Part shown: one piece after another, positions 6,130 to 21,219 of the stretch
How the letters are laid out: every line of letters begins with the position of its first letter
Numbering within the stretch: the stretch's first letter is position 1
Program-made: the position numbers and the translations under genes
Assembly: GCF_024055795.1 (NCBI RefSeq)
Contig: NZ_JAMXMY010000004.1
Span: 1-64,000 of the forward strand
Direction: 5' to 3'
From: Actinoallomurus purpureus
GTDB taxonomy: Bacteria > Actinomycetota > Actinomycetes > Streptosporangiales > Streptosporangiaceae
Length of the DNA stretch: 64,000 nucleotides
Notes under the pieces: generated by a model
Seen by the model: only the letters and a program-made list of their open reading frames with translations
Told to the model about the DNA's origin: nothing
The model's database searches: none

Positions 6130-6457
6130 CGACGGCGAGCGCGTTCTCGAGCGACAGGCCCAGGTCGGTGAGCCGGTAGTGCACCCGCGGCGGCACGGTG
6201 GGCTCCACCCGGCGGGCGACCAGGCCGTCGCGGGTCAGGCTCTGGAGGGTCGCGGACAGCATCTTCTGCGAGATGCCGGGCATCCGCCGCCGAAGCTCGG
6301 CGAAACGCACCTCCTGGGGGGAAGCCTCGGCGAGAACTTTGACGGCCATGGACGTCCATTTCGTGCCGATGCGGTCCAGCAGCCGGCGGGTCGGGCACTC
6401 GGGATCGAAGAGGTCGCCGCGTGCTCCCTTCGCCGTACGGGTCGGAGAGGAGGTCAC
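6044..6457 (-). CDS. HxlR-family winged-helix regulator (second copy)
   Basis: A 137-residue protein with the HxlR signature: a cysteine at 21 in PECPTRRLLDRIGTKW, FAELRRRMPGIS, KMLSATLQSLTRDGLV and the wing VPPRVHYRLT. It is only distantly similar to the regulator at 2743. It is divergent from an alpha/beta hydrolase gene, with an inverted repeat between the two, and so probably controls that gene and itself. The acidic, asparagine-rich tail is outside the domain. Confidence 0.85.
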   Translation of the reverse strand: MTSSPTRTAKGARGDLFDPECPTRRLLDRIGTKWTSMAVKVLAEASPQEVRFAELRRRMPGISQKMLSATLQSLTRDGLVARRVEPTVPPRVHYRLTDLGLSLENALAVVRYWAEEHMAEIDRANASNDAQAGDADR

Positions 6458-6506
6458 CTGCGGCTCACCACCTGTCGAGAAAGTGCGGTCTTGGCTTGGT
6501 TGCGGA

Positions 6507-10411: not shown

Positions 10412-11875
10412 TCAGTTGTAGAAGGTCGCGCTGTGGATGTCCACCGGGTTGGTGGTGTTGCCGGTGGCCACGCCGTACACGGCCACGAATGCCGAGCCGG
10501 TCGAGACCAGGCCGGTGTAGTCACCGAGCATCCGACCGGAACTCGTCAATGGCACCGTCCTCGCGTCGAACGAGCCCTCGATGTGCCGCTCGCGCCACGA
10601 TCCGGACTCCGTGCAGTCGTCCGCGCAGGTCACGGCCCAGAAGTCGGTGGGCAGGGTCGCGGCGGACGTGTTCTTCCGGAAGTCGTAGTACGTGACCGCC
10701 ACGGTGCCGCCCGGGGACACGGCGATCGCCGGTACCGCGGCCGAACCGGTGGGCGTCTTGTCCACGCGAACCGGGCTGGACCAGGTCTGCCCGTCGTCCG
10801 TGGACCGCGCGTACGCGACGTGGAAGGTGCCGTCGGTGTCCTGGCTCTGCCAGACCGCGTTCACCACCTTGCTGCCCGGCTGGGCCGCCAGCAGTGGCTC
10901 CGTGGCGTTGCGCACCGGGTCGCTCGAGTTGTCGGGGTCCGGGATCTTGGTACCCACGGTGAACGGGGCCGCCACGTTGAGCGTCGGCGTCGACCACGTG
11001 TCGCCGCCGTCGGTCGAGCGGACGACCTGGGTGGCGGCGGTGGTGTCGGTCTCCACGTGCATGCCGAGCAACAGCGAACCGTCGGCCATCGGTGTCACCA
11101 CCGTACCGATGGCGCCGCTGTTGGTGGGGAAGTCGTACACCTTCTTGGTGGTCCAGGTCTTCCCGTCGTCGGTCGACTTCGCCATGTAGACCGGCTGTCC
11201 CCAGGTGCCGTCCGACTCGCTGAAGGACCGGTCCCACACCGTGTAGAGCACGCCCGGGTGGTACGGGTCGGCGGTGATCGCCGGACGGTCGTTGAAGAAC
11301 TCCGTGGTGTCGTCCCGCTGCAGGGTCACCGGGGCGTCCCAGTGCTCGCCGCCGTCACTGGACCGCGACACCAGCATCGCCGTGACCTGACCGGTACGCG
11401 ACAGCGAGAACGACGCGGCCACCGCCGCGCCGGACGGCGTGATCGTGATCCAGTGGTCCGTCGTGACGTCGTAGTCCCCGCCGTTGGCCGCGGTACCGCC
11501 GTTGCACCGGGAGAACGCGGGCTGCGTCGCCGACGCATGCCAGGTCGCGCCGCCGTCGTTGGACACGGCGGTGACGGCTCCGTTGCTGCCGTACCGGTTC
11601 CACCGGTCCTGCTGGTACACGGCGACGAGATGCGACGAATTCTTCGGATCCCGCGCCACCATGGGCTGAACCTCGGCATTCGAGTTCAGCACATAACCGT
11701 CGCCCGCGGACAGCCCACAACCCGCCGGCAGCGCACTGGTACCCGATACCGGCACCACACTGGCAGGGTCAGAACCATCCGCGAAGGCGGACTGAGCCGC
11801 AAAGGTGCAGGCGAACACGGTGGCCGCCGCGACCACCACTGATCTGGAACGTCGTTTCAACGGTGCCTTCCTCAT
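10412..11875 (-). CDS. Secreted sialidase-fold (BNR/Asp-box) protein
   Basis: A 487-residue exported protein. The start at 11875 gives a signal peptide with RRSRSVVVAAATVFACTF and cleavage near the AFA. The mature part has at least five Asp boxes (SNDGGATW, SSDGGEHW, STDDGKTW, STDGGDTW, STDDGQTW) spread along a beta-propeller. This fold is shared by exo-alpha-sialidases and other glycosidases. The arginine triad and Tyr/Glu pair of true sialidases cannot be assigned by eye, so the enzymatic role is uncertain. It may form a secreted group with the next gene on the same strand, 219 bases upstream. Confidence 0.8.
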   Translation of the reverse strand: MRKAPLKRRSRSVVVAAATVFACTFAAQSAFADGSDPASVVPVSGTSALPAGCGLSAGDGYVLNSNAEVQPMVARDPKNSSHLVAVYQQDRWNRYGSNGAVTAVSNDGGATWHASATQPAFSRCNGGTAANGGDYDVTTDHWITITPSGAAVAASFSLSRTGQVTAMLVSRSSDGGEHWDAPVTLQRDDTTEFFNDRPAITADPYHPGVLYTVWDRSFSESDGTWGQPVYMAKSTDDGKTWTTKKVYDFPTNSGAIGTVVTPMADGSLLLGMHVETDTTAATQVVRSTDGGDTWSTPTLNVAAPFTVGTKIPDPDNSSDPVRNATEPLLAAQPGSKVVNAVWQSQDTDGTFHVAYARSTDDGQTWSSPVRVDKTPTGSAAVPAIAVSPGGTVAVTYYDFRKNTSAATLPTDFWAVTCADDCTESGSWRERHIEGSFDARTVPLTSSGRMLGDYTGLVSTGSAFVAVYGVATGNTTNPVDIHSATFYN

Positions 11876-12094
11876 CCTCGATGGGGGGGTGTCTCCACAG
11901 GGGACGCTGCCGCCAAGCCGGGCAGCGTGTTCCCAGCAGGCGCCAAACGGCACAGCCGACGCTACAGCTCCAAGATCATTTCCGTCTCCCCCTTAACCTG
12001 ATCTTTCAGACAGTCCTCAGGGAACGGCGGAAGCGGTGCACCGCGTCCCGGCCGGCCTGCCACCGGGACGCGGGTACGGACGACCGGAGGCGGG

Positions 12095-13582
12095 TCAGGA
12101 GACGTTCAGCGCGGTGTCGTCGAGGACGAACGAAGTCTGCAGCTGCGATCCCTCGGTTCCAGTGAACTTCAATGTGACGGCCTGGCCCGCGTAGGCGGCG
12201 AGGTTGTAGCTGTGCTGCTGGTAGCCGGTGGCGGCGTTGAGATTGGAGAAGGTCGCCAGGGTCGACAGCACGGTGCCCGAACTGTTGAGCACCTGGACCT
12301 TCAGGGTGTCGTAGGCGGTCGAGGTGGACGTCTCGGCTGTGTCGATGTGCAGCCAGAAACTGAGTGAGGCGGTCGAGCAGGCCGCCGGGACGGTCACGGT
12401 TTGGGAGAGCGTGTCGGTGTTGGCCGTTCCGTAGCCGTTGAGCCAGGCGTCGTAGGCGCCGGTACGGGGCGGCTCGCTGGAGGAGGTGTTGATGACGCCC
12501 GAGGTGGCCGTCCAGCCGGCGCCGGAGCCGGACTCGAAACCGGGGTTGGTGACCAGTTGCGCCGGGGTGCACGAGGAGGTCGGCGGCGGGGTCGGCGTGG
12601 TGGTGCCGGCGCCGGCGAGCCACTCAGTTGCGTTCAGGCCGAGTTGCGCGTCGGTCGCCTTGGCGTCGTTCCAACCGTTGTACAGGGTGTTGCCGGACTG
12701 GCCGGTGCCATCGTCGATGTCGGAGCTGTCACCCCAGAAGGCGACCCGGCCGTTGCCGAAGGTGCTGGTGGCGAAGAAGGCCCCGGTGGTCCCGCCCGGC
12801 GTCGCGGTGGTCAAGTAGAGCAGGCCTTTGACGCCTGCGTTGTCGGCCGGGTGCAGGGTCACGGTGGTGCCGTTGTAGAGGGCGCCCGCGGTCACGGTTC
12901 CGTACGGACCGTGCAGGACCGGGTCGGTGCTGTCAGTGATGGCGGTCGGGTAGCCGCTGGCGATGTTGAGCAGATCGACGCTGAATCCGAACGGGTCGGT
13001 ACTGTCGACCGTGTTGTTGGTCATCAGATCGTTAATGATCTTCGGCGAGTCGGCGCCGTCGTTGTTGCGGTCGCTGCCGGTGTGGTCGGAGACCAGGAAT
13101 AGCCCGCCGCCGTTCTTGACGAACGTCATCACCGCTGTCTTCTCGGCCGTACTGAGCAGGACGTTGGGCTCGGGCAGCACGAACTCGTCGAAGTTCGACA
13201 AGTCCTGGGGGTTGGAGGAATCGCCATAGGTGATGGTCTTGCCTGGGGCGAGGGTGTCGAGGGTGTAGTTGCCGGTCTTCTGCAAGGCCACACCCCAGGC
13301 CGAGATGGCGCCGGTCCAGTCCGTCTCCACTGTCGGCGAGGCGTTCTGCGTCGTCGGGTCGGGAATGCTCGTGCTGATGATCCAATCGGCGTTGCCCGCG
13401 GTCTCGGCCTTGCTGTCGTCGAACAGCACACGATGCTTGGTCACCGCCGCCGCCGGGTGAGAGTTCGCGACAACCACAAGCGTGACGGCAGCGAAGGTGA
13501 AGGCGGCAATAACGAGCGCGGTGATCGCACCCAGCAGACGTGCCCTGGTCGTGCGAAACGGGATGGCTGGGGGCTCGAACAT
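12095..13582 (-). CDS. Secreted protein with ThuA/GATase-like domain and C-terminal carbohydrate-binding-like domain
   Basis: A 495-residue protein with a membrane signal near residues 14-38. Residues about 50-320 form a flavodoxin/ThuA-like fold: RVLFDDSK at the first strand, [15 protein letters not shown] at the nucleophile-elbow position, and [19 protein letters not shown] threonine/proline linker ([11 protein letters not shown]) follows. The last 140 residues begin [10 protein letters not shown] and are a jelly-roll module found behind many secreted actinomycete hydrolases. Activity is unknown. Confidence 0.7.
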
Positions 13583-13746
13583 TCGACACGCCTCTCGGGC
13601 GAAGATGAGATGTTCTGAGTGTCAGTTCAACGGCGCTGCGCGGTCCACGTACGCGATGACAACCGTCGATGTCGAGATCTGTTCGATATTAGGGTTGACG
13701 ACGCGCTCAGACGCGGAACTCGCCGGCTGGTCGGCCCCATCGCGAG

Positions 13747-14622
13747 TCAGGTACCCGCGCTGCGACGGGCGGACCAAGCCTCGTGGGCGCTGCGGACGCG
13801 AGCCCACAACACCTCACGGTCGGCGGCGCCCAGATCGGTCAAGTCCAGCCCGAACACCTCCGCCAGCGCCTCGTACCACTCGCTCCTGGTCTCCAGGACA
13901 CGCCGCCGGTCCGGGCCGGGACCGATCCGCCGCAGCACGCACCCAGTGAGTGCATCGACTCCGTCGGCGTCGCGCCGCATCACCGTGGACGTCCGCACGT
14001 ACCCCGACTCCGGGGACGTCGACAGGTGCACATGCCGGTCGAGGAAGTCGGTCACCACCGCGGGCCGCATCCCGAAGTCCATGCCGGCGAACGTTCCACG
14101 CGGATCGTGCTCCAGCCGCCATCCACCAGGTTCGACCTGCGAGCGCCCGACCCGGAACCGGAACGGCCCCTGGACATACTCCCCCACACGCAGCGGCAGC
14201 GGCTCGTGCAGCCCGTCGCCCAGCCCCGCGTCCACCAGCCAGACTCCCTCCGGGCATTCCCCGGACGGCAGGCCGCGCACGGTCAGCGCCAGATGGTTGG
14301 CGAGCGCCGGACCCGGAGGAGGCACGACATCATGCTCCTGCACTCCTGCCCGGTGCCAGGTCACGTCATATCCCAGGGCGCGCAGCAGGAGGGAGAACGC
14401 GCCGTTGAGGTGGTAGCAATAACCGCCGCGTCCGGCCACGATCCGCGCGGCGGAGTCGTGAGGATCGATGGAGGTCAGCCGGCCGAGGTGGGCGTCGAGG
14501 GCCTCGTAGGCGATGCGTTCGACCTGCGCGGCGTGAAGGGTGCGCAGGCCCGCGACGCTGGGCGGTCCCAGGTCGGAAACGCCGAGGCGTCGAAGATAGG
14601 CGGCCGTGTCGAACGCGGGCAT
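13747..14622 (-). CDS. nat: Arylamine N-acetyltransferase
   Basis: A 291-residue cytoplasmic enzyme that moves acetyl from acetyl-CoA to arylamines or related acyl acceptors. The catalytic triad is visible: Cys69 in RGGYCYHLNG, His110 in ANHLALTV and Asp131 in LVDAGLGDG. The position of Cys69 supports the ATG at 14622. The residue two after the cysteine is histidine, where most family members have glutamate (RGGxCxExN), an actinomycete variation. In actinomycetes such genes sometimes close ansamycin rings, but no such cluster is present here. Confidence 0.9.
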   Translation of the reverse strand: MPAFDTAAYLRRLGVSDLGPPSVAGLRTLHAAQVERIAYEALDAHLGRLTSIDPHDSAARIVAGRGGYCYHLNGAFSLLLRALGYDVTWHRAGVQEHDVVPPPGPALANHLALTVRGLPSGECPEGVWLVDAGLGDGLHEPLPLRVGEYVQGPFRFRVGRSQVEPGGWRLEHDPRGTFAGMDFGMRPAVVTDFLDRHVHLSTSPESGYVRTSTVMRRDADGVDALTGCVLRRIGPGPDRRRVLETRSEWYEALAEVFGLDLTDLGAADREVLWARVRSAHEAWSARRSAGT

Positions 14623-14806
14623 CTGCCACCTCCGGCACGCATCGTAAACCGCCACGGAAGCAGTACGCCAAGCAGTGATAGCTCGCGCTGCGGCCCTGAC
14701 GCACGCCCCAGCACGGCGCCCGGCCCCGGTTGCTCACCGCCGCCGACCTAACGCTGATCGACGCCCCGGAATCCCAGGCTGGTGCGGTTGGCGCCGGATG
14801 GGCGGG

Positions 14807-15529
14807 TCACCCGAGCTTGAGCAGTAGCTCGGCGAGCTGGGCCGACATGGTGATCATGCAGTCGTGGCCGGTCGGCAACTCCCACACCTGTGCCGGGGAA
14901 CCGTTGGGCTGTATCGCGGGGACAGACCTCCGTTCATAGCCTTCCGGCACGCCGGCGACGCAGTGGATGTGCGTCCGTGGGATCACGTTCAAAGCCGGGT
15001 TGTCCAGTCGGACCGGCTGCTGGAGGCAACGCACCGACTGATCCGACAGCATCGTGCGCAGCCAGGCGACGTCCACCGGGTCGGTAACCCCGAACAGACC
15101 CGAGGACGGCGGCAGCTCGGGAGGCGGAACCCGCCAGCCACCATCGGACTTCGCGGCGAGGTCGATCATGACCTGGGTCAGGGGCATGACGTCGGCCGCG
15201 CTCTCACCGTCCTCCGGGACCATCGCGTCGAGGTAGACCAGATGTGCGATCCGATCCGGGACCTGGTTGGCCACAGACGAGATGACCAGCCCGGCGTAGC
15301 TGTGTCCCACGAGTACCACCTCGGTGAGGTCTTCCTCGGTGATCAGCGTGACGATGTCGCCGACGTGCGTGTCAAGCCCTACCTCGGGGCTGAGCAGATG
15401 TGCCTTGTCTCCGTGGCCGGTCAGCGACGGGGCGAGCACCCGATGTCCGGCCGACGTCAGGAACGAGACCACTCGCTCCCAGCACTGTCCGCTATGCCAG
15501 GCGCCGTGTACCAGGAGATACGTTGACAT
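14807..15529 (-). CDS. Alpha/beta hydrolase, esterase/hydroxynitrile lyase-like
   Basis: A 240-residue enzyme of the plant-esterase/HNL-like branch: LLVHGAWHSGQCW at the oxyanion hole, nucleophile elbow VGHSYAG with Ser77, and the catalytic histidine at 222 in TGHDCM. Members cleave small esters, and the substrate is unknown. It is divergent from an XRE-family regulator about 290 bases away, which may control it (inference). The intervening bases hold no clear gene. Confidence 0.85.
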   Translation of the reverse strand: MSTYLLVHGAWHSGQCWERVVSFLTSAGHRVLAPSLTGHGDKAHLLSPEVGLDTHVGDIVTLITEEDLTEVVLVGHSYAGLVISSVANQVPDRIAHLVYLDAMVPEDGESAADVMPLTQVMIDLAAKSDGGWRVPPPELPPSSGLFGVTDPVDVAWLRTMLSDQSVRCLQQPVRLDNPALNVIPRTHIHCVAGVPEGYERRSVPAIQPNGSPAQVWELPTGHDCMITMSAQLAELLLKLG

Positions 15530-15820
15530 GTCTCGCTCCTTGCTGTGCTTGTCCGCGTTGGGGGCGGAAGGATGGGGGTCACCAGCCGAGTTCGCCGGCG
15601 TCCTCCTGGAAGCCGTCGGTGCCGGTGACGGCCATGGCGACGACGGCCTCGCGGTCTCCCCGACGGGTGGGCCACCGTCGATACCGGCGGTGAGGTCGGT
15701 GTCGGCTCGGTGAACCGCTGATCAGGCTGCCGCCCAGGCTTTGACCGAGCCAGGCCCCCCCGCGTTCCTGGGGGTGACAGGACCAGGCACGCGCGCGACC
15801 GTCCGAATTACCGTGGAGAC

Positions 15821-16708
15821 ATGACCGAGGAACCGAACCCGCTGGGCGATTACATTCGCGCCCGCCGTGAGCGCGTCACCCCCGAGCAGGTCGGCGTCCC
15901 CGTCTCGGGAGTGCGGCGCGTGCCGGGGCTGCGCCGGGAGGAGGTCGCAATGCTCGCCGGCATCAGCGTCGATTACTACCTCCGCCTGGAACAGGGCCGC
16001 GATCGCAACCCCTCCGTGCAGGTCCTCGAGTCCCTCGCCCGCGTGCTGCAACTCGACGACGATGCGACGGCCTACCTGCTACGCCTCGGCGCAGACAAAC
16101 CCCGAAGGCACCGGCGCCGGCCCCGGAAGGAGACTGTCCCTCCGGGCATCGCCAAGCTGGTGGCCACGCTCCCGCTACCCGCACACGTCGAGAGCCGCTA
16201 CCTCGACGTCCTCGCCGCCAACGCCTTGGCGACGGCACTGTCACCGCGTCTCGCGGCGGGAGCCAACCGCCTGCGGGACGTGTTCCTCGACCCTGCCGAG
16301 CAGGCTCTCTACCCGGACTGGGAGAACGCCACCGTGGTCATGGTCGCCGGCTTCCGCGACTCCGTCGGCACCGACACGGACGACCCCCGATTCATCGAAC
16401 TCGTCGGCGAACTCTCCCTTGCCAGCCCTCGCTTCAGCCGGCTCTGGGCCCGCCACGACGTACGAGCATGCGAAGGCGCCCCTTTGCACATCGACCACCC
16501 CCAGGTCGGCGGTCTCCGGCTGAACCGGGAGAGGCTGGGCTTCGCCGGTGCCGCAGGCCAGAAGCTCGTCGTCTACCACCCCGACCCCGGCACTGACAGC
16601 GCCGAAAAACTGGCACTCCTCGCCTCCGTCATGCAGACACCGGCTGCGCCCCGAGACGCCACCGCCGGCGAACAGGATTCACGTTCGCCCGGCGCGCCGA
16701 GAAGATGA
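15821..16708 (+). CDS. XRE-family regulator with MmyB-like ligand domain
   Basis: A 295-residue regulator. The N-terminal helix-turn-helix (about 8-85) has GLRREEVAMLAGISVDYY and LEQGRDRNPS, a hallmark of the MmyB-like group. The C-terminal part (about 105-275) is the PAS-like MmyB domain, with LAANALATALSP and a late HPDPGTDSAEKLALL. Members often sit next to an oxidoreductase or hydrolase gene that they control. Here the divergent neighbour is an alpha/beta hydrolase. Confidence 0.88.
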   Translation: MTEEPNPLGDYIRARRERVTPEQVGVPVSGVRRVPGLRREEVAMLAGISVDYYLRLEQGRDRNPSVQVLESLARVLQLDDDATAYLLRLGADKPRRHRRRPRKETVPPGIAKLVATLPLPAHVESRYLDVLAANALATALSPRLAAGANRLRDVFLDPAEQALYPDWENATVVMVAGFRDSVGTDTDDPRFIELVGELSLASPRFSRLWARHDVRACEGAPLHIDHPQVGGLRLNRERLGFAGAAGQKLVVYHPDPGTDSAEKLALLASVMQTPAAPRDATAGEQDSRSPGAPRR

Positions 16709-16846
16709 CGCCGGCCGAAAGCTCGGCGACTACCTGAGCGGCACATACCCGCACACCGACTGAACCCGAGCGAACTGCAACGGGAATTGCCACCAAGACG
16801 AGTCAGGGCGAGGCTGCCCGATATGCTGCCGTAGCGCGGAGGTTGG

Positions 16847-17152
16847 ATGCAATTCTTGCTCGTGGCCTATGACGGCACAGATGATCAGGCGATCGAACGG
16901 CGTCTGCGGGCGCGCGCCAAGCACGTCGCACTCGGTGATGAGATGGTGGCGTCGGGGCAGATGCTGTACGGCACGGCAATTCTCGATGATCATGGCAAGA
17001 TGATCGGTTCCATGGTGGTCCTGGATTTCCCGGCGCGAGAGGATCTGGACGCATGGCTCGCAGTCGAGCCTTACATGGTCGGCGATGTCTGGAAGAAGGT
17101 CGAAGTGCGGCCATGCCGGGTCGGCCCATCGTTCACCGGCCTCCACCACTGA
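16847..17152 (+). CDS. YCII-related protein
   Basis: A 101-residue protein with the YciI fold: MQFLLVAYDGTD, HVALGDEM, the MLYGTAILDD strand, GSMVVLDFPAREDLDAWL and the VRPC end. The conserved histidine at 26 and aspartate at 30 are the likely active residues of the family. Some members remove chloride from chloro-aromatic compounds or act as small accessory enzymes; the role here is unknown. A ggaggttgg stretch just upstream could serve the ATG. Confidence 0.85.
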   Translation: MQFLLVAYDGTDDQAIERRLRARAKHVALGDEMVASGQMLYGTAILDDHGKMIGSMVVLDFPAREDLDAWLAVEPYMVGDVWKKVEVRPCRVGPSFTGLHH

Positions 17153-17202
17153 TAGCCCTTTCTGAACTGATCTCGGCCGGTGGCTCGTGACCGTACGCTC
17201 GC

Positions 17203-17781
17203 CTAGCCCTTTATGGTGACGCGGAGCACGATGATGACCGTTATGAGCAGACCTACGATGAGTCCGGCCACTTGGGGCGTCAGCTGGTTCCGCAACCGCT
17301 TCGGCGGCTGGAACCGTGCGGCCGGGTCCGTGCTCAACTCCCACCAGTTGACTACCCGCTGGAAATCCATGTGGAAATCGGGGTCGGGGTACCGGGTGCT
17401 GTGCTGGAGCGCAGGCAGTGAGCGACGCCGCCCGTCCGCGAGGGTGATACGAGCCGCGATCACCGTCCCATATTCGCTCTTGGTCTCGCGTACGTCGATC
17501 CACCGGATCTCCTGCCAGGGGTAGATACGACCACGCCCGATACCCCAGCAGATGGTTATTCCGGCCGCCCCGACCGTGGTCCGGCTCCGGAGCGCCATGG
17601 AGATGCCGAGACCGACGAGCGCGGCCGTCCCGCCCAGCAGCCAGCAGGAGCCCACGACGCCGAGTTGAAAAAAGGCAAAGGCTCCTTCGACGACCAACCC
17701 GACGCCCAGCGCCGCAAAATGCGGCCAGGATGGGTGATACCGATCTTTCCCTCGGAAGCTCAGCTCGTTCACGGAGCGCAC
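17203..17781 (-). CDS. Membrane protein with PH-like domain
   Basis: A 192-residue protein starting at the GTG at 17781 (GGAG seven bases upstream). Two spans lie near 25-45 and 47-65. A beta-rich cytoplasmic segment follows, with GIGRGRIYPWQEIRWIDV typical of bacterial PH-like domains, and a last span lies near 167-187. Function is unknown. It is convergent with the YCII gene. Confidence 0.7.
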   Translation of the reverse strand: MRSVNELSFRGKDRYHPSWPHFAALGVGLVVEGAFAFFQLGVVGSCWLLGGTAALVGLGISMALRSRTTVGAAGITICWGIGRGRIYPWQEIRWIDVRETKSEYGTVIAARITLADGRRRSLPALQHSTRYPDPDFHMDFQRVVNWWELSTDPAARFQPPKRLRNQLTPQVAGLIVGLLITVIIVLRVTIKG

Positions 17782-18061
17782 GCTACATCTCCGGCCCTCG
17801 AACGGATGAGCCGCCCCTGGCTGGCCGTCATCCGGCTTCGCGCCTGCTCACAGACGCAGGTCAGGTAATTCGAGGACAAGCCGACCCGGACCGCAGGGCC
17901 GGCCACGGCCCGAGGCCCGGAAGCGGCGCGGCGTGCGCCACGAGGCGCTGTTTGACCATGCGGAGGTGGAATGCCTTCGCCGATGGCCTGTCGCAAGCTG
18001 ATCAACGCCTACAACGATCCCACGGAGAGGAAGCCTCCTGACCTAACCGCCGCCGTACGCG

Positions 18062-18346
18062 CGGCTGCACGACCTTCGGCACATCCACGCGACGACGCTC
18101 CTCCTGGCCGGCGTCCCCGTACACGTCGTCGCGGCCCGGCTCGGCCATGCCGATCCGGCGATCACGCTTCGGGTCTACGCGCACGTGGTCCGCTCGGCCG
18201 AGACGGCTGCGGCCGATGTGTTCGCCAAGGCCATCAAAGTCACTCACTCGGTCACTCATCGGAGCCCGTCTGAGCACGTACGTGTGTGTGGCGCCGACGC
18301 GTGGGCGGCGGCCTCCGGTCAGGAGCAGGGACGTCTGACATTCTGA
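18062..18346 (+). pseudogene. C-terminal remnant of a tyrosine integrase
   Basis: The frame encodes RLHDLRHIHATTLLLAGV, VVAARLGHADPAITLRVY and AHV: the box II H-x-x-R, the GH and the catalytic tyrosine of phage-type integrases. The N-terminal domains and the first catalytic arginine are missing, and the frame has no start codon near its left end. It points toward the tRNA-Thr repeat at 18848, as actinomycete integrases usually do, so it may be what is left of the enzyme of an element that used that site. Confidence 0.75.
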
Positions 18347-18453
18347 GATAGGTACATGTCGCGCGGCTGTTTGCTTCGACTGTCTTGGTTAGGCCTGTGA
18401 AGAGGCAGGTCCGTCCCGCCCCGTGCGGGGCCCAGCGAAGACAGGGAGAAAAA

Positions 18454-18627
18454 ATGCCCGAGGAGGAGCTCCCGTTCGTGGTGCAGGCCGCCATCAGGGA
18501 GGCCAACGCCACAGGCAGAGACGTCACCGTGAGGCTCTTCGGCGCTCGCAGGGAATTCGAGGTGTGGCCCGGTGACACCGAGGAGAGCATGACCGAACTT
18601 CTGCCCCAGCTGAAGCTCCGTCCGTAA
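18454..18627 (+). CDS. Small acidic protein, unknown function
   Basis: A 57-residue product starting at an ATG five bases after GGGAG. It has an alternating pattern (DVTVRLFGARREFEVW) that suggests a small beta-hairpin followed by the acidic helix GDTEESMTELLPQL. I do not recognise a family. It has its own strong ribosome site and is followed by a strong hairpin, both signs of a real gene. It lies between the integrase remnant and the tRNA-Thr repeat. Confidence 0.55.
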   Translation: MPEEELPFVVQAAIREANATGRDVTVRLFGARREFEVWPGDTEESMTELLPQLKLRP

Positions 18628-18667
18628 TTTCCAACTGTCGCCGCCACCACGGTGTCGGTGACTGAAA

Positions 18668-18710
18668 AATCCCCGTTCGGGTGGCCTTAGAGGCCATCCG
18701 GACGGGGATT
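18668..18710 (+). terminator. Long hairpin terminator
   Basis: A 19-base stem beginning AATCCCCGTTCGGGTGGCC with only two G-T pairs and a five-base loop, 40 bases after the small gene's stop. It is symmetrical and may work in both directions. Confidence 0.7.
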
Positions 18711-18813
18711 CTCTGATCGTCCGTCGGAGTGAAGCCCCCCGGCCGCCGGTGCTGAGGCGATGGACGACACCTTCTCAACGCTCGACGCGGAGCCGTAGTC
18801 ACCCAGTCATTCA

Positions 18814-18847
18814 AGAAGCCCCCGGCCGTGACCGGGCGGGGGCTTCT
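18814..18847 (-). terminator. Hairpin beside the left tRNA-Thr repeat
   Basis: AGAAGCCCCC pairs with GGGGGCTTCT. It abuts the left copy of the tRNA 3' end and differs in sequence from the hairpin beside the right copy. It is probably the original terminator of tRNA-Thr before the insertion (inference). Confidence 0.6.
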
Positions 18848-18900
18848 GACCTGGGAGCCGCCTATCGGAATCGAACCGATGACCTATTCATTACGAGTGA
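18848..18900. repeat. Left 53-bp direct repeat, partial tRNA-Thr (attachment site)
   Basis: Identical over 53 bases to 21077-21129. It contains the last 45 bases of tRNA-Thr(CGT), from the anticodon stem to the 3' end, plus eight downstream bases. Identity stops abruptly on the tRNA side. This is what remains after site-specific integration into a tRNA 3' end. Confidence 0.85.
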
Positions 18901-19550
18901 GGCTACGCATGTCCATAGCGGTCCAGATCTAACCGCTGACCTGGCTGCTCATGGCTGAGCCGTCCACCGCTGTCCAGGGTCGTCCGGGGGCGTTGTTAGC
19001 AAAGGCGTTAGCAGTCTTGGTGTGCTCGGCGCTGTCTGAGTCGACGTACGTGGCGCTTGAGCGATCGCCCCCAACCCGAACGGCGGCAGCCACCCGCGGC
19101 GATCGTCTTGCGCGCCAGCCATCACCTGACCACCTCGATAAGCCGACGGATTTACAGACCCACCGCGCAACTCGACTGACCTGCAGGTTTGTCGCAGCGG
19201 CTCTTGATTTCGATCCGTATTCGGCCCCTCCGGCGTCGCCGACCGAGACGCGGACCGCTTAGGTGCCCATGTCCTAAGCGATCTGTCACTACGACGCACC
19301 CGCCTGCGGCCGGTTCGGTCGGCCGCGCGAAGGGTCGGTCTTGGCTGTGGGCGACGTCGGCCCGTGGGATGAACGCGTGGAGACCGCACTGCGGCTTGAC
19401 CGCGCCGGGACCGCACGCGGTACGGATCTGGTGCCTGCCGGGTCGCCCAGACTGGGCACCGCTACGATAACAACGCCCCCTCACCGGGGGGTGGAGTCCG
19501 ATAACCGGGTTCCCCCGAAGCCTGGGGGCAGTTCAACAGGACGGAACAGG
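18901..19550. other. 650 bases without a recognisable gene
   Basis: Left part of the tRNA-Thr insertion. No frame has a ribosome site and a protein-like composition. Two short GC hairpins (around 19476-19492 and 19512-19528) precede hemE and could affect its transcript. Confidence 0.5.
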
Positions 19551-20681
19551 GTGGACATCGCTGCACGGGGAGAAGTCAGCCACAAGCGGGTGTCCGGCAA
19601 CGTCCGGCCTAAGAAGCTGCTGCTGCGCGCGCTCGCGGGAGAGCGCACCGAGCGGTCGCCGATATGGCTGATGCGGCAGGCCGGACGCTACCTGCCCGAG
19701 TACCACCGGGTCCGTGAGGCCGCCGGGGGCATGGTCGGGCTCTGCAACTCGCCCGAACACGCTGTCGAGGTGACCCTGCAGCCGATCCGCCGCTTCCCGC
19801 TCGATGCCGCCATTGTCTTCGCGGACCTTCCGCAGGTCGCCGCCGCGCTGGGCCAGACCCTGGACTACCGGGTCGGCGACGGGCCGGTCCTGACGCCCCC
19901 CGTTCGCTCGGCAGCGGACACAGCCGACTTCCTCAGCACCTCCAGGCTCCACGAAAAACTGGCCCCGGTCTACGAGACGGTACGGCAGCTTACCCGCGCC
20001 CTGCCTCCCGAAGTGGCGCTGATCGGCTATGCCGGCGCGCCGTGGACGATCGCCACCTACATGGTCGAAGGACGCAGCGGCGGCCCGTCGGAACACGCCG
20101 TCGTCAAGCAGTGGGCGCTGAGCGACCCCGATGGGTTCCAGCCCCTGATTGACATGCTCACGACCGCTGTCACCCAGTTCCTTGAGCGCCAGATCGAGGC
20201 GGGCGCGGAGGCGGTGCAGTTGTTCGACACCTGGGCCGGAATCCTCCCGGACGCCCTCTTCGAACGCTGGTGTGTCAGGCCGGTCGCCGCTATCATCGCG
20301 GCGCTCAAGGTAAAGCACCCGGACGTCCCCGTCATCGCCTTCCCCCGCGGCGCCGGGCTCGCTTACGACGGCTTCGCCGAGGCGACCGGCGCGGACTGCA
20401 TCGGCCTGGACGCCACGGTTCCCCTCGAATGGGCCGCGCAGAAGGTACAGCGCGGCCTGGGCCGATGCGTACAGGGCAACCTCGATCCCCAGCTTCTGGT
20501 CGCCGGCGGACCCTCGCTCTATGCCGAAACAGGCCGTATCCTGCGCGCCCTGAGCGGGGGGCCGTTCGTGTTCAACCTGGGACACGGCATCGCCAAGACC
20601 ACGCCGCCGGAGCATGTCACTGCCCTGGCCGAGCACGTACGCTCCTGGACCACGCCCGCCCCGCCAGACCGGCTGGAATAA
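19551..20681 (+). CDS. hemE: Uroporphyrinogen decarboxylase on a tRNA-Thr island
   Basis: About 376 residues; converts uroporphyrinogen III to coproporphyrinogen III in the cytoplasm. The family elements are all present: LMRQAGRYLPEY (both substrate arginines), the early acidic residue in FADLPQV, YAGAPWTIATYMVEG (conserved tyrosine), DTWAGILP, and FNLGHGI with the C-terminal histidine. Phrases such as KLLLRALAGE, YMVEGRSG and CVQGNLDP look closer to alphaproteobacterial HemE than to actinobacterial ones (impression, not a search). The GTG at 19551 is a best guess; the frame is open further upstream. It is the only clear gene between the tRNA repeats, with no other haem gene nearby. Confidence 0.88.
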   Translation: MDIAARGEVSHKRVSGNVRPKKLLLRALAGERTERSPIWLMRQAGRYLPEYHRVREAAGGMVGLCNSPEHAVEVTLQPIRRFPLDAAIVFADLPQVAAALGQTLDYRVGDGPVLTPPVRSAADTADFLSTSRLHEKLAPVYETVRQLTRALPPEVALIGYAGAPWTIATYMVEGRSGGPSEHAVVKQWALSDPDGFQPLIDMLTTAVTQFLERQIEAGAEAVQLFDTWAGILPDALFERWCVRPVAAIIAALKVKHPDVPVIAFPRGAGLAYDGFAEATGADCIGLDATVPLEWAAQKVQRGLGRCVQGNLDPQLLVAGGPSLYAETGRILRALSGGPFVFNLGHGIAKTTPPEHVTALAEHVRSWTTPAPPDRLE

Positions 20682-21044
20682 TCACCCGCGGACCCGGACT
20701 GCTCACCGGGATGACCGCTCCGCGGAACTGGTGACAGCTATTCTGGACTCGCGGCTGATGATCGTGTCCCGTCACAGTTAGTTGGCTCAGGCGGGGAGAG
20801 TTCCCGAAGGCGATGGGGCAGGGACTGCGGCGGTGGCGTCAGGCTCCGCGTCGGCTTTGCCTAGCGGCGGACCAAGATCTTCCCGTGACCGGAGGCCCCG
20901 TTGCACGGCCAGTTTGGCATGTCCACGTTCACGCACCGCCTCGGCGACGCCCTTGCCTCCGGCTCGGAGTTAGCACCGCCTCATCCTCCAGCGGACTTTC
21001 ACCCCCAAGCGATCGCCCATGCTGGGCGCACAAGGCGTTAGCAA
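20682..21044. other. 360 bases without a recognisable gene
   Basis: Right part of the tRNA-Thr insertion between hemE and the tRNA terminator. I see no coding frame with a ribosome site and no repeat other than the terminal hairpin. Confidence 0.5.
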
Positions 21045-21076
21045 AAAGCCCCCTTCCATGATCGGAAGGGGGCTTT
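21045..21076 (-). terminator. Terminator of tRNA-Thr
   Basis: A perfect 13-base stem (AAAGCCCCCTTCC) with a six-base loop, followed on the minus strand by a T run. It lies eight bases beyond the tRNA 3' end. Confidence 0.8.
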
Positions 21077-21129
21077 GACCTGGGAGCCGCCTATCGGAAT
21101 CGAACCGATGACCTATTCATTACGAGTGA
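21077..21129. repeat. Right 53-bp direct repeat within tRNA-Thr (attachment site)
   Basis: Second copy of the 53-base repeat, here part of the intact tRNA gene. Together with the copy at 18848 it bounds about 2.2 kb of inserted DNA. Confidence 0.85.
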
Positions 21130-21157
21130 ATCGCTCTGCCGACTGAGCTAAGGCGGC
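21085..21157 (-). tRNA. tRNA-Thr (anticodon CGT)
   Basis: A full cloverleaf can be folded: acceptor GCCGCCT pairs with AGGCGGC, the D arm is GCTC/GAGC, the anticodon stem ATTCA/TGAAT has loop CTCGTAA, and the T arm carries TTCGATT. The anticodon CGT reads ACG threonine codons. CCA is not encoded. Its presence next to ricT and holB is a common actinobacterial arrangement. Confidence 0.95.
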
Positions 21158-21219
21158 CTGCCACACACTGTGTGACGCAGAGAGTCTACCGGGTTCCGGC
21201 GGCACCTCGTACATCGATA

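Follow-up and report, generated by a model that had tools for sequence, protein, structure and literature searches.

A foreign, solitary hemE gene lodged in a putative AICE remnant at a tRNA-Thr gene of Actinoallomurus purpureus

Genes and features at the tRNA-Thr locus

The window analyzed here (the whole stretch of 64,000 nt, positions 1 to 64,000 of contig NZ_JAMXMY010000004.1 from Actinoallomurus purpureus) contains an exact 54-bp direct repeat (18847-18900 and 21076-21129; 0 expected by chance, based on 100 shuffles) that encloses a segment of 2.2 kb, the right copy being the 3' part of a tRNA-Thr(CGT) gene. Each copy has its own GC-rich hairpin on its 3' side in the direction of tRNA transcription, and the two hairpins differ (18814-18847 and 21045-21076); both were read from the sequence, as they have no T-run and were hence missing from the terminator scan. 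Between the repeats, hemE is the lone intact gene, the remaining ORFs being short and overlapping. We refer to this gene and its close relatives as hemE-X, and to the genomes compared by G numbers. The features from left to right are as follows, with the strand given where one was assigned.

17203-17781, minus strand: bPH_6-domain gene (PF10756), conserved chromosomal left border of the accretion zone
17868-17932: short putative integrative-element fragment, 88-92% identical to sequence inside the G001, G002 and G007 elements
17992-18237, plus strand: frameshifted C-terminal pseudogene of an AICE tyrosine integrase (PF00589, E=1.9e-9)
18454-18627, plus strand: 57-aa ORF between the integrase remnant and the left repeat (from the ORF list; no Pfam match)
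18814-18847, minus strand: hairpin behind the left copy of the tRNA-Thr 3' end (read from the sequence)
18847-18900: left att repeat, copy of the tRNA-Thr 3' part (exact 54-bp match)
18901-19052: putative distal terminus of an AICE-type element, adjoining the left repeat on its inner side (~77% identical to the distal termini of the 23-kb G001 and G002 elements)
19406-19550, plus strand: left portion of the hemE-X unit, comprising a promoter-like region and the leader (homology with G156, G190, G180 and G002 starts here)
19551-20681, plus strand: hemE-X, predicted uroporphyrinogen decarboxylase, GTG start (TIGR01464, 365.9 bits; PF01208; tree; motif alignment)
20682-20829: right part of the hemE-X unit (homology with G156 to ~20737 and again at 20785-20829)
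21031-21076: putative tRNA-proximal element end with hairpin 21045-21076 (93-97% identity to the proximal ends of G001 and G002)
21076-21129: right att repeat, within the functional tRNA gene (exact 54-bp match)
21081-21158, minus strand: tRNA-Thr(CGT), the integration target (tRNA search)

An earlier note on this DNA had described exact 53-bp repeats of the tRNA 3' end bounding the insert, a different hairpin behind each copy and no integrase. The repeat is confirmed, with its length corrected to 54 bp, and the two hairpins are as described; the lack of an integrase holds between the repeats, but a C-terminal pseudogene of a tyrosine integrase sits 0.6 kb outside the left one. A 20-bp inverted repeat lies at 18668-18710, 3' of the 57-aa ORF and ahead of the left att repeat. 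The left flank is collinear with those of G003 and G007 (86-89% DNA identity) to ~17815/17858, where homology ends. Because synteny with these two genomes resumes only at the bPH_6 gene, we place the element-derived accretion zone at ~17859-21080, which makes it 3.2 kb long here as compared to ~35 kb in G003 and ~32 kb in G007.

Probable origin of the segment from an AICE

Within the genus, this tRNA-Thr gene is an integration hot spot, with a second att copy ~23 kb from the tRNA in G001 and G002, and two further att copies in tandem in G003 and G007. In the elements of G001 and G002, the gene for a tyrosine integrase ends immediately within the tRNA-proximal att. The G002 element encodes a RepSA initiator, identified by Pfam (PF20199) and with a G001 homologue recognised by eye, as well as an FtsK/SpoIIIE-type transfer protein. 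Both ends of the window segment match these elements. The left repeat with the first 150 bp inside it (18751-19052) is ~77% identical to their distal ends, the alignment of 18901-19052 running across the att copy (like ends occur elsewhere in G001), and 21031-21160 is 93-97% identical to their proximal ends. The integrase pseudogene shares 82-83% DNA identity with the 3' end of their int genes, and 88% identity over 73 aa. The window retains neither replication nor transfer genes and lacks an intact integrase of the tyrosine or serine kind; the frameshifted remnant outside the left repeat is its only integrase trace, and tblastn found neither RepSA nor TraB near the locus. Given this loss, the AICE origin rests on the homology of the ends, and the att repeats are site-specific and lie at a tRNA 3' end. 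Because the ends match the sister elements and an integrase pseudogene lies just outside the left repeat, we read the segment as the putative remnant of an AICE that lost its core and kept both ends and one gene. The simplest reading of the whole zone would be two decayed element remnants in tandem, with hemE in the tRNA-proximal one. AICEs use tRNA 3' ends, tRNA-Thr included, and tandem AICEs as well as remnants have been described (PMC3218068).

These comparisons bear out two proposals of the earlier note, namely that the locus is a tRNA-Thr island (it has att repeats at tRNA-Thr(CGT), with sister elements at the same tRNA) and that the gene could be cargo left after deletion of an element (the ends and the integrase remnant match elements of sister species). 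The sister species, a comparison that the note had suggested, have no hemE at tRNA-Thr. G006, considered as an empty site (no second att copy and no integrase match), was set aside, since its left flank shows no collinearity over 31 kb.

The tandem elements at G003:C22:320000-347000 and G007:C70:320000-341000 contain adjacent genes that resemble, by eye, an HD hydrolase, a Nudix hydrolase and an XRE regulator. An mdp-nud-xre set has been described for pSE211-type AICEs (PMC3218068), and two AICE types seem to use the one tRNA in this genus. Within the G001 element (11539-17688, L105 and L106 combined), three large ORFs resemble by eye the type I restriction-modification set HsdM, HsdS and HsdR.

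Protein, leader and ancestry of hemE-X

The window HemE passes the TIGR01464 equivalog model with 365.9 bits (cut-off 302.95) and matches URO-D (PF01208) over its full length. Its motifs MRQAGR, FADL, APWTIATYMVEG, FDTW and NLGHGI align with solved enzymes at what we take to be the catalytic Arg, Asp, Tyr, Ser/Thr and His positions of HemE. The product most likely acts as a second uroporphyrinogen decarboxylase. In the leader region of hemE-X, TACGAT and TTCAACAGGA-GGAACAG-GTGGA are invariant, and the GTG start together with the leader TTCAACAGGA-GGAACAG is kept in four relatives; we found no consensus sigma-70 promoter for the window gene.

The HemE tree comprised 83 proteins and was rooted on a Listeria row. 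Within it, the 18 actinomycete hemE-X rows form one clade (99/99) that joins two sequences from alphaproteobacterial MAGs (100/100) inside alphaproteobacterial HemE (100/99). Identity to the window HemE is 77% for the Caulobacteraceae MAG and 72% for the Bradyrhizobium MAG. These two MAGs may be affected by binning errors, but isolates, too, support the wider alphaproteobacterial placement. The same genome has another hemE at G000:C13:91373-92401, of actinobacterial type and with ~40% protein identity to the window HemE, and this housekeeping protein groups with actinobacterial HemE. The earlier note was therefore right both in calling the gene alphaproteobacterial in type and in suggesting a search for a second copy.

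A solitary gene at unrelated loci

Of the 343 family genomes, 16 carry hemE-X, and all 16 have two hemE matches. The gene was also found in Actinopolymorpha rutila and in one (G646, from another family) of 395 genomes sampled from the class, for a total of 18 loci. Homology among these loci is limited to the gene with ~0.1-0.3 kb ahead of it and ~0.05-0.15 kb behind it (more in a few cases), with no common collinear flank even for copies that are 96-98% identical; the copies stand singly, and their neighbour genes vary by locus. Relationships among the copies also depart from those of the housekeeping genes. G206 and G316, from different genera, have hemE-X genes 98.3% identical as compared to 80.4% for housekeeping hemE, whereas within single genera housekeeping hemE is the more similar of the two (G316 versus G308, 96.5% and 86% for hemE-X; G203 versus G206, 93.2% and 86%). 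This mismatch, together with the tree, rules out vertical inheritance and an actinobacterial paralogue. When the filled loci of G205 and G203 are compared with related genomes, they show insertions of ~2.7 and ~3.3 kb, respectively, in otherwise collinear DNA, and these hold hemE-X plus other DNA.

On either side of the hemE-X unit, the breakpoints vary among copies, and clean transposon boundaries were therefore rejected for it. A plasmid or phage vehicle was sought as well, and no record exceeded 60% identity, the best in IMG/VR being ~33%. Two pairs of viral-labelled IMG/VR contigs (L221-L224) encode divergent, long-branched HemE proteins that are 33-34% identical. What looked by eye like a CRISPR array ahead of the G205 hemE gained no support from a repeat search.

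ARAGORN found no tRNA near the other hemE-X loci except a tRNA-SeC in G308 and, near the Actinopolymorpha copy, a tRNA-Met and a tRNA-Asn. Sequences like tRNA 3' ends lie near hemE-X in G206 and, by pattern alone, in G308. In G206 (G206:C65, L162), two such copies with a hairpin lie ~2.0 and 0.5 kb upstream of hemE-X and a similar hairpin directly 3' of it, with no complete tRNA found nearby, which suggests that this hemE-X, too, may lie in an array of tRNA-targeted elements.

These loci bear on whether the segment in the window, att-hemE-att, is itself a minimal mobilizable cassette, which a related AICE integrase could excise through the 54-bp repeats and move, with its hemE-X cargo, to another tRNA-Thr. 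In favour of such a cassette, the two att copies match exactly over 54 bp, neither element end has been lost, and AICEs of sister species with intact integrases use the same tRNA. However, no other examined hemE-X locus is flanked by tRNA-Thr repeats, and the unit common to the other loci is the gene rather than an att-bounded segment, so that we consider this explanation unlikely. We instead regard hemE-X as a solitary, horizontally mobile and selected haem-pathway gene of actinomycetes. Our literature search returned no report of this second hemE, with the caveat that searches for the symbol hemE are blurred by the word heme.

Traces of a possible IS21-type vehicle

Five copies (G021, G204, G205, G206 and G316) start at one point, TGATTTTGTCAAG, in unrelated surroundings, that of G206 from the second base. 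This left end occurs nowhere in the 343 family genomes except at hemE-X loci, and it holds two imperfect tandem repeats of ~22 bp; such tandem-repeat ends are known from IS21-family elements. Antisense 3' pieces of istB lie behind hemE in G205 (aa 184-255), Actinopolymorpha (aa 227-255) and G203 (aa 236-255), where positions are those of a reference IstB, confirmed as IstB_IS21. These traces are in keeping with an IS21-type element of the past in which hemE lay between istB and one of the termini, what would now be called a transporter IS.

The window hemE-X has no istA or istB match nearby and no IS21-like left end, and its whole branch (the window, G002, G180, G156, G190 and G269) shows neither the left end nor an istB trace. 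Several close hemE-X copies also have no such left end, and right ends vary. An intact IS21 element with hemE was not found next to any of the 18 copies (343 family and 395 class genomes), and the IS21 copies examined in G316 and G156 do not have the hemE-X left end. The IS21 vehicle may thus serve as a lead for part of the hemE-X family, and not as a demonstrated mechanism for the window.

Selection and possible roles

None of the 18 full hemE-X ORFs is interrupted, and the 15 pairs compared, recent ones included, give dN/dS values of 0.10-0.36; selection therefore keeps the HemE-X protein. The sister genome G004 has a 3' fragment of hemE-X only; therefore, the gene can be lost. If hemE-X were neutral cargo, passively carried by unstable DNA without any benefit, this dispensability and the scrappy accessory DNA of the flanks would be expected, but the open frames and low ratios, in recent copies too, speak against it and make it improbable.

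Genes of tetrapyrrole metabolism adjoin a few copies. At L020 (1308-7068, Bradyrhizobium MAG), genes for a COX1-type oxidase subunit I, a cytochrome-c-type protein, hemC and the hemE-X relative run in one direction, the last directly behind hemC. A divergent HemD-domain gene (PF02602) lies ~0.3 kb upstream of hemE-X in G646 (L207), and in G001 (L173) hemE-X is closely followed by a cobalamin riboswitch (6281-6496; RF00174, 91.2 bits) and a CbtA gene. A tetrapyrrole setting is thus hinted at for these three loci, not in general.

The gain from hemE-X may lie in dosage, in a different regulation or in tolerance. One role that may be considered is that of a dosage gene, raising a limit on haem-synthesis flux, for example when many cytochromes are made. 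The gene order in the Bradyrhizobium MAG, whose relative is 72% identical and near an oxidase gene, and the HemD neighbour in G646 argue for it, yet most actinomycete copies adjoin unrelated genes and the window copy is solitary, which leaves the dosage role possible and somewhat unlikely. Alternatively, as the earlier note had suggested, hemE-X could be a tolerance gene that maintains haem synthesis while an inhibitor, such as a compound made by a competitor, blocks the resident enzyme. The sporadic spread of a single extra enzyme under purifying selection does resemble that of target-duplication resistance genes, and HemE-X is just ~40% identical to the resident HemE. On the other hand, no biosynthetic or resistance gene consistently adjoins hemE-X, its catalytic residues are the usual ones, and our literature search yielded neither an inhibitor of this kind nor such a duplicate for these genera; we judge tolerance to be very unlikely.

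Discussion

The explanation that we favour, with good confidence, is that hemE-X is a horizontally mobile single-gene unit for a predicted functional spare uroporphyrinogen decarboxylase, and that in this genome it has come to lie in an AICE remnant. An integrative element would have sat at tRNA-Thr, with the 54-bp repeats as its att sites, and its core would later have been lost, leaving both ends and hemE-X. We infer that hemE-X entered this element as a compact unit of ~1.2-1.5 kb made up of its own promoter region, the gene and a short tail, and that this unit was captured alone, repeatedly, at unrelated actinomycete loci. In at least one branch it may have ridden an IS21-family element, and such an element would have been the original vehicle. 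The product would join the chromosomally encoded actinobacterial HemE as a second isoenzyme, presumably expressed and adding decarboxylase capacity. A more specific proposal, which we offer tentatively and consider rather unlikely, is that hemE-X travels as cargo of a small, dedicated IS21-derived transposable unit, precise at one end and variable at its other ends, which moves a single housekeeping enzyme between actinomycete families and is kept for protecting or boosting haem synthesis.

Central tetrapyrrole genes are usually regarded as fixed housekeeping genes, and here an ordinary one behaves as a travelling gene. A foreign second hemE that has crossed genera and a family boundary on its own while staying intact points to selective pressure at the uroporphyrinogen step in soil actinomycetes, for which the 18 loci offer natural replicates in seeking its cause. 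The spread of a gene-sized unit with different breakpoints each time also makes a route of single-gene transfer in actinomycetes testable.

Compared with known systems, the island appears to be an ordinary AICE remnant with an unusual passenger. Like AICEs of the pSAM2 and pSE211 types, it has att repeats at a tRNA 3' end, a tyrosine-integrase relic and ends homologous to sister elements bearing RepSA and FtsK/TraB; unlike them, it is without replication, transfer and intact integrase genes, and its cargo is a single foreign haem-pathway enzyme. Insertion sequences with passenger genes have been described as a class, the transporter IS or tIS (PMC9330008). The exact left end with ~22-bp tandem repeats in five hemE-X relatives and the antisense istB 3' fragment behind hemE in three copies are shared with tIS and the IS21 family, whereas hemE-X loci are without an intact istA-istB and a second end and show no target duplication, and the window copy is without the left end. 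With respect to HemE itself (TIGR01464, PF01208), the hemE-X product resembles the known enzyme in being a full-length equivalog with the catalytic residues, and differs in being a second copy, of an alphaproteobacterial clade, that is horizontally mobile in actinobacteria.
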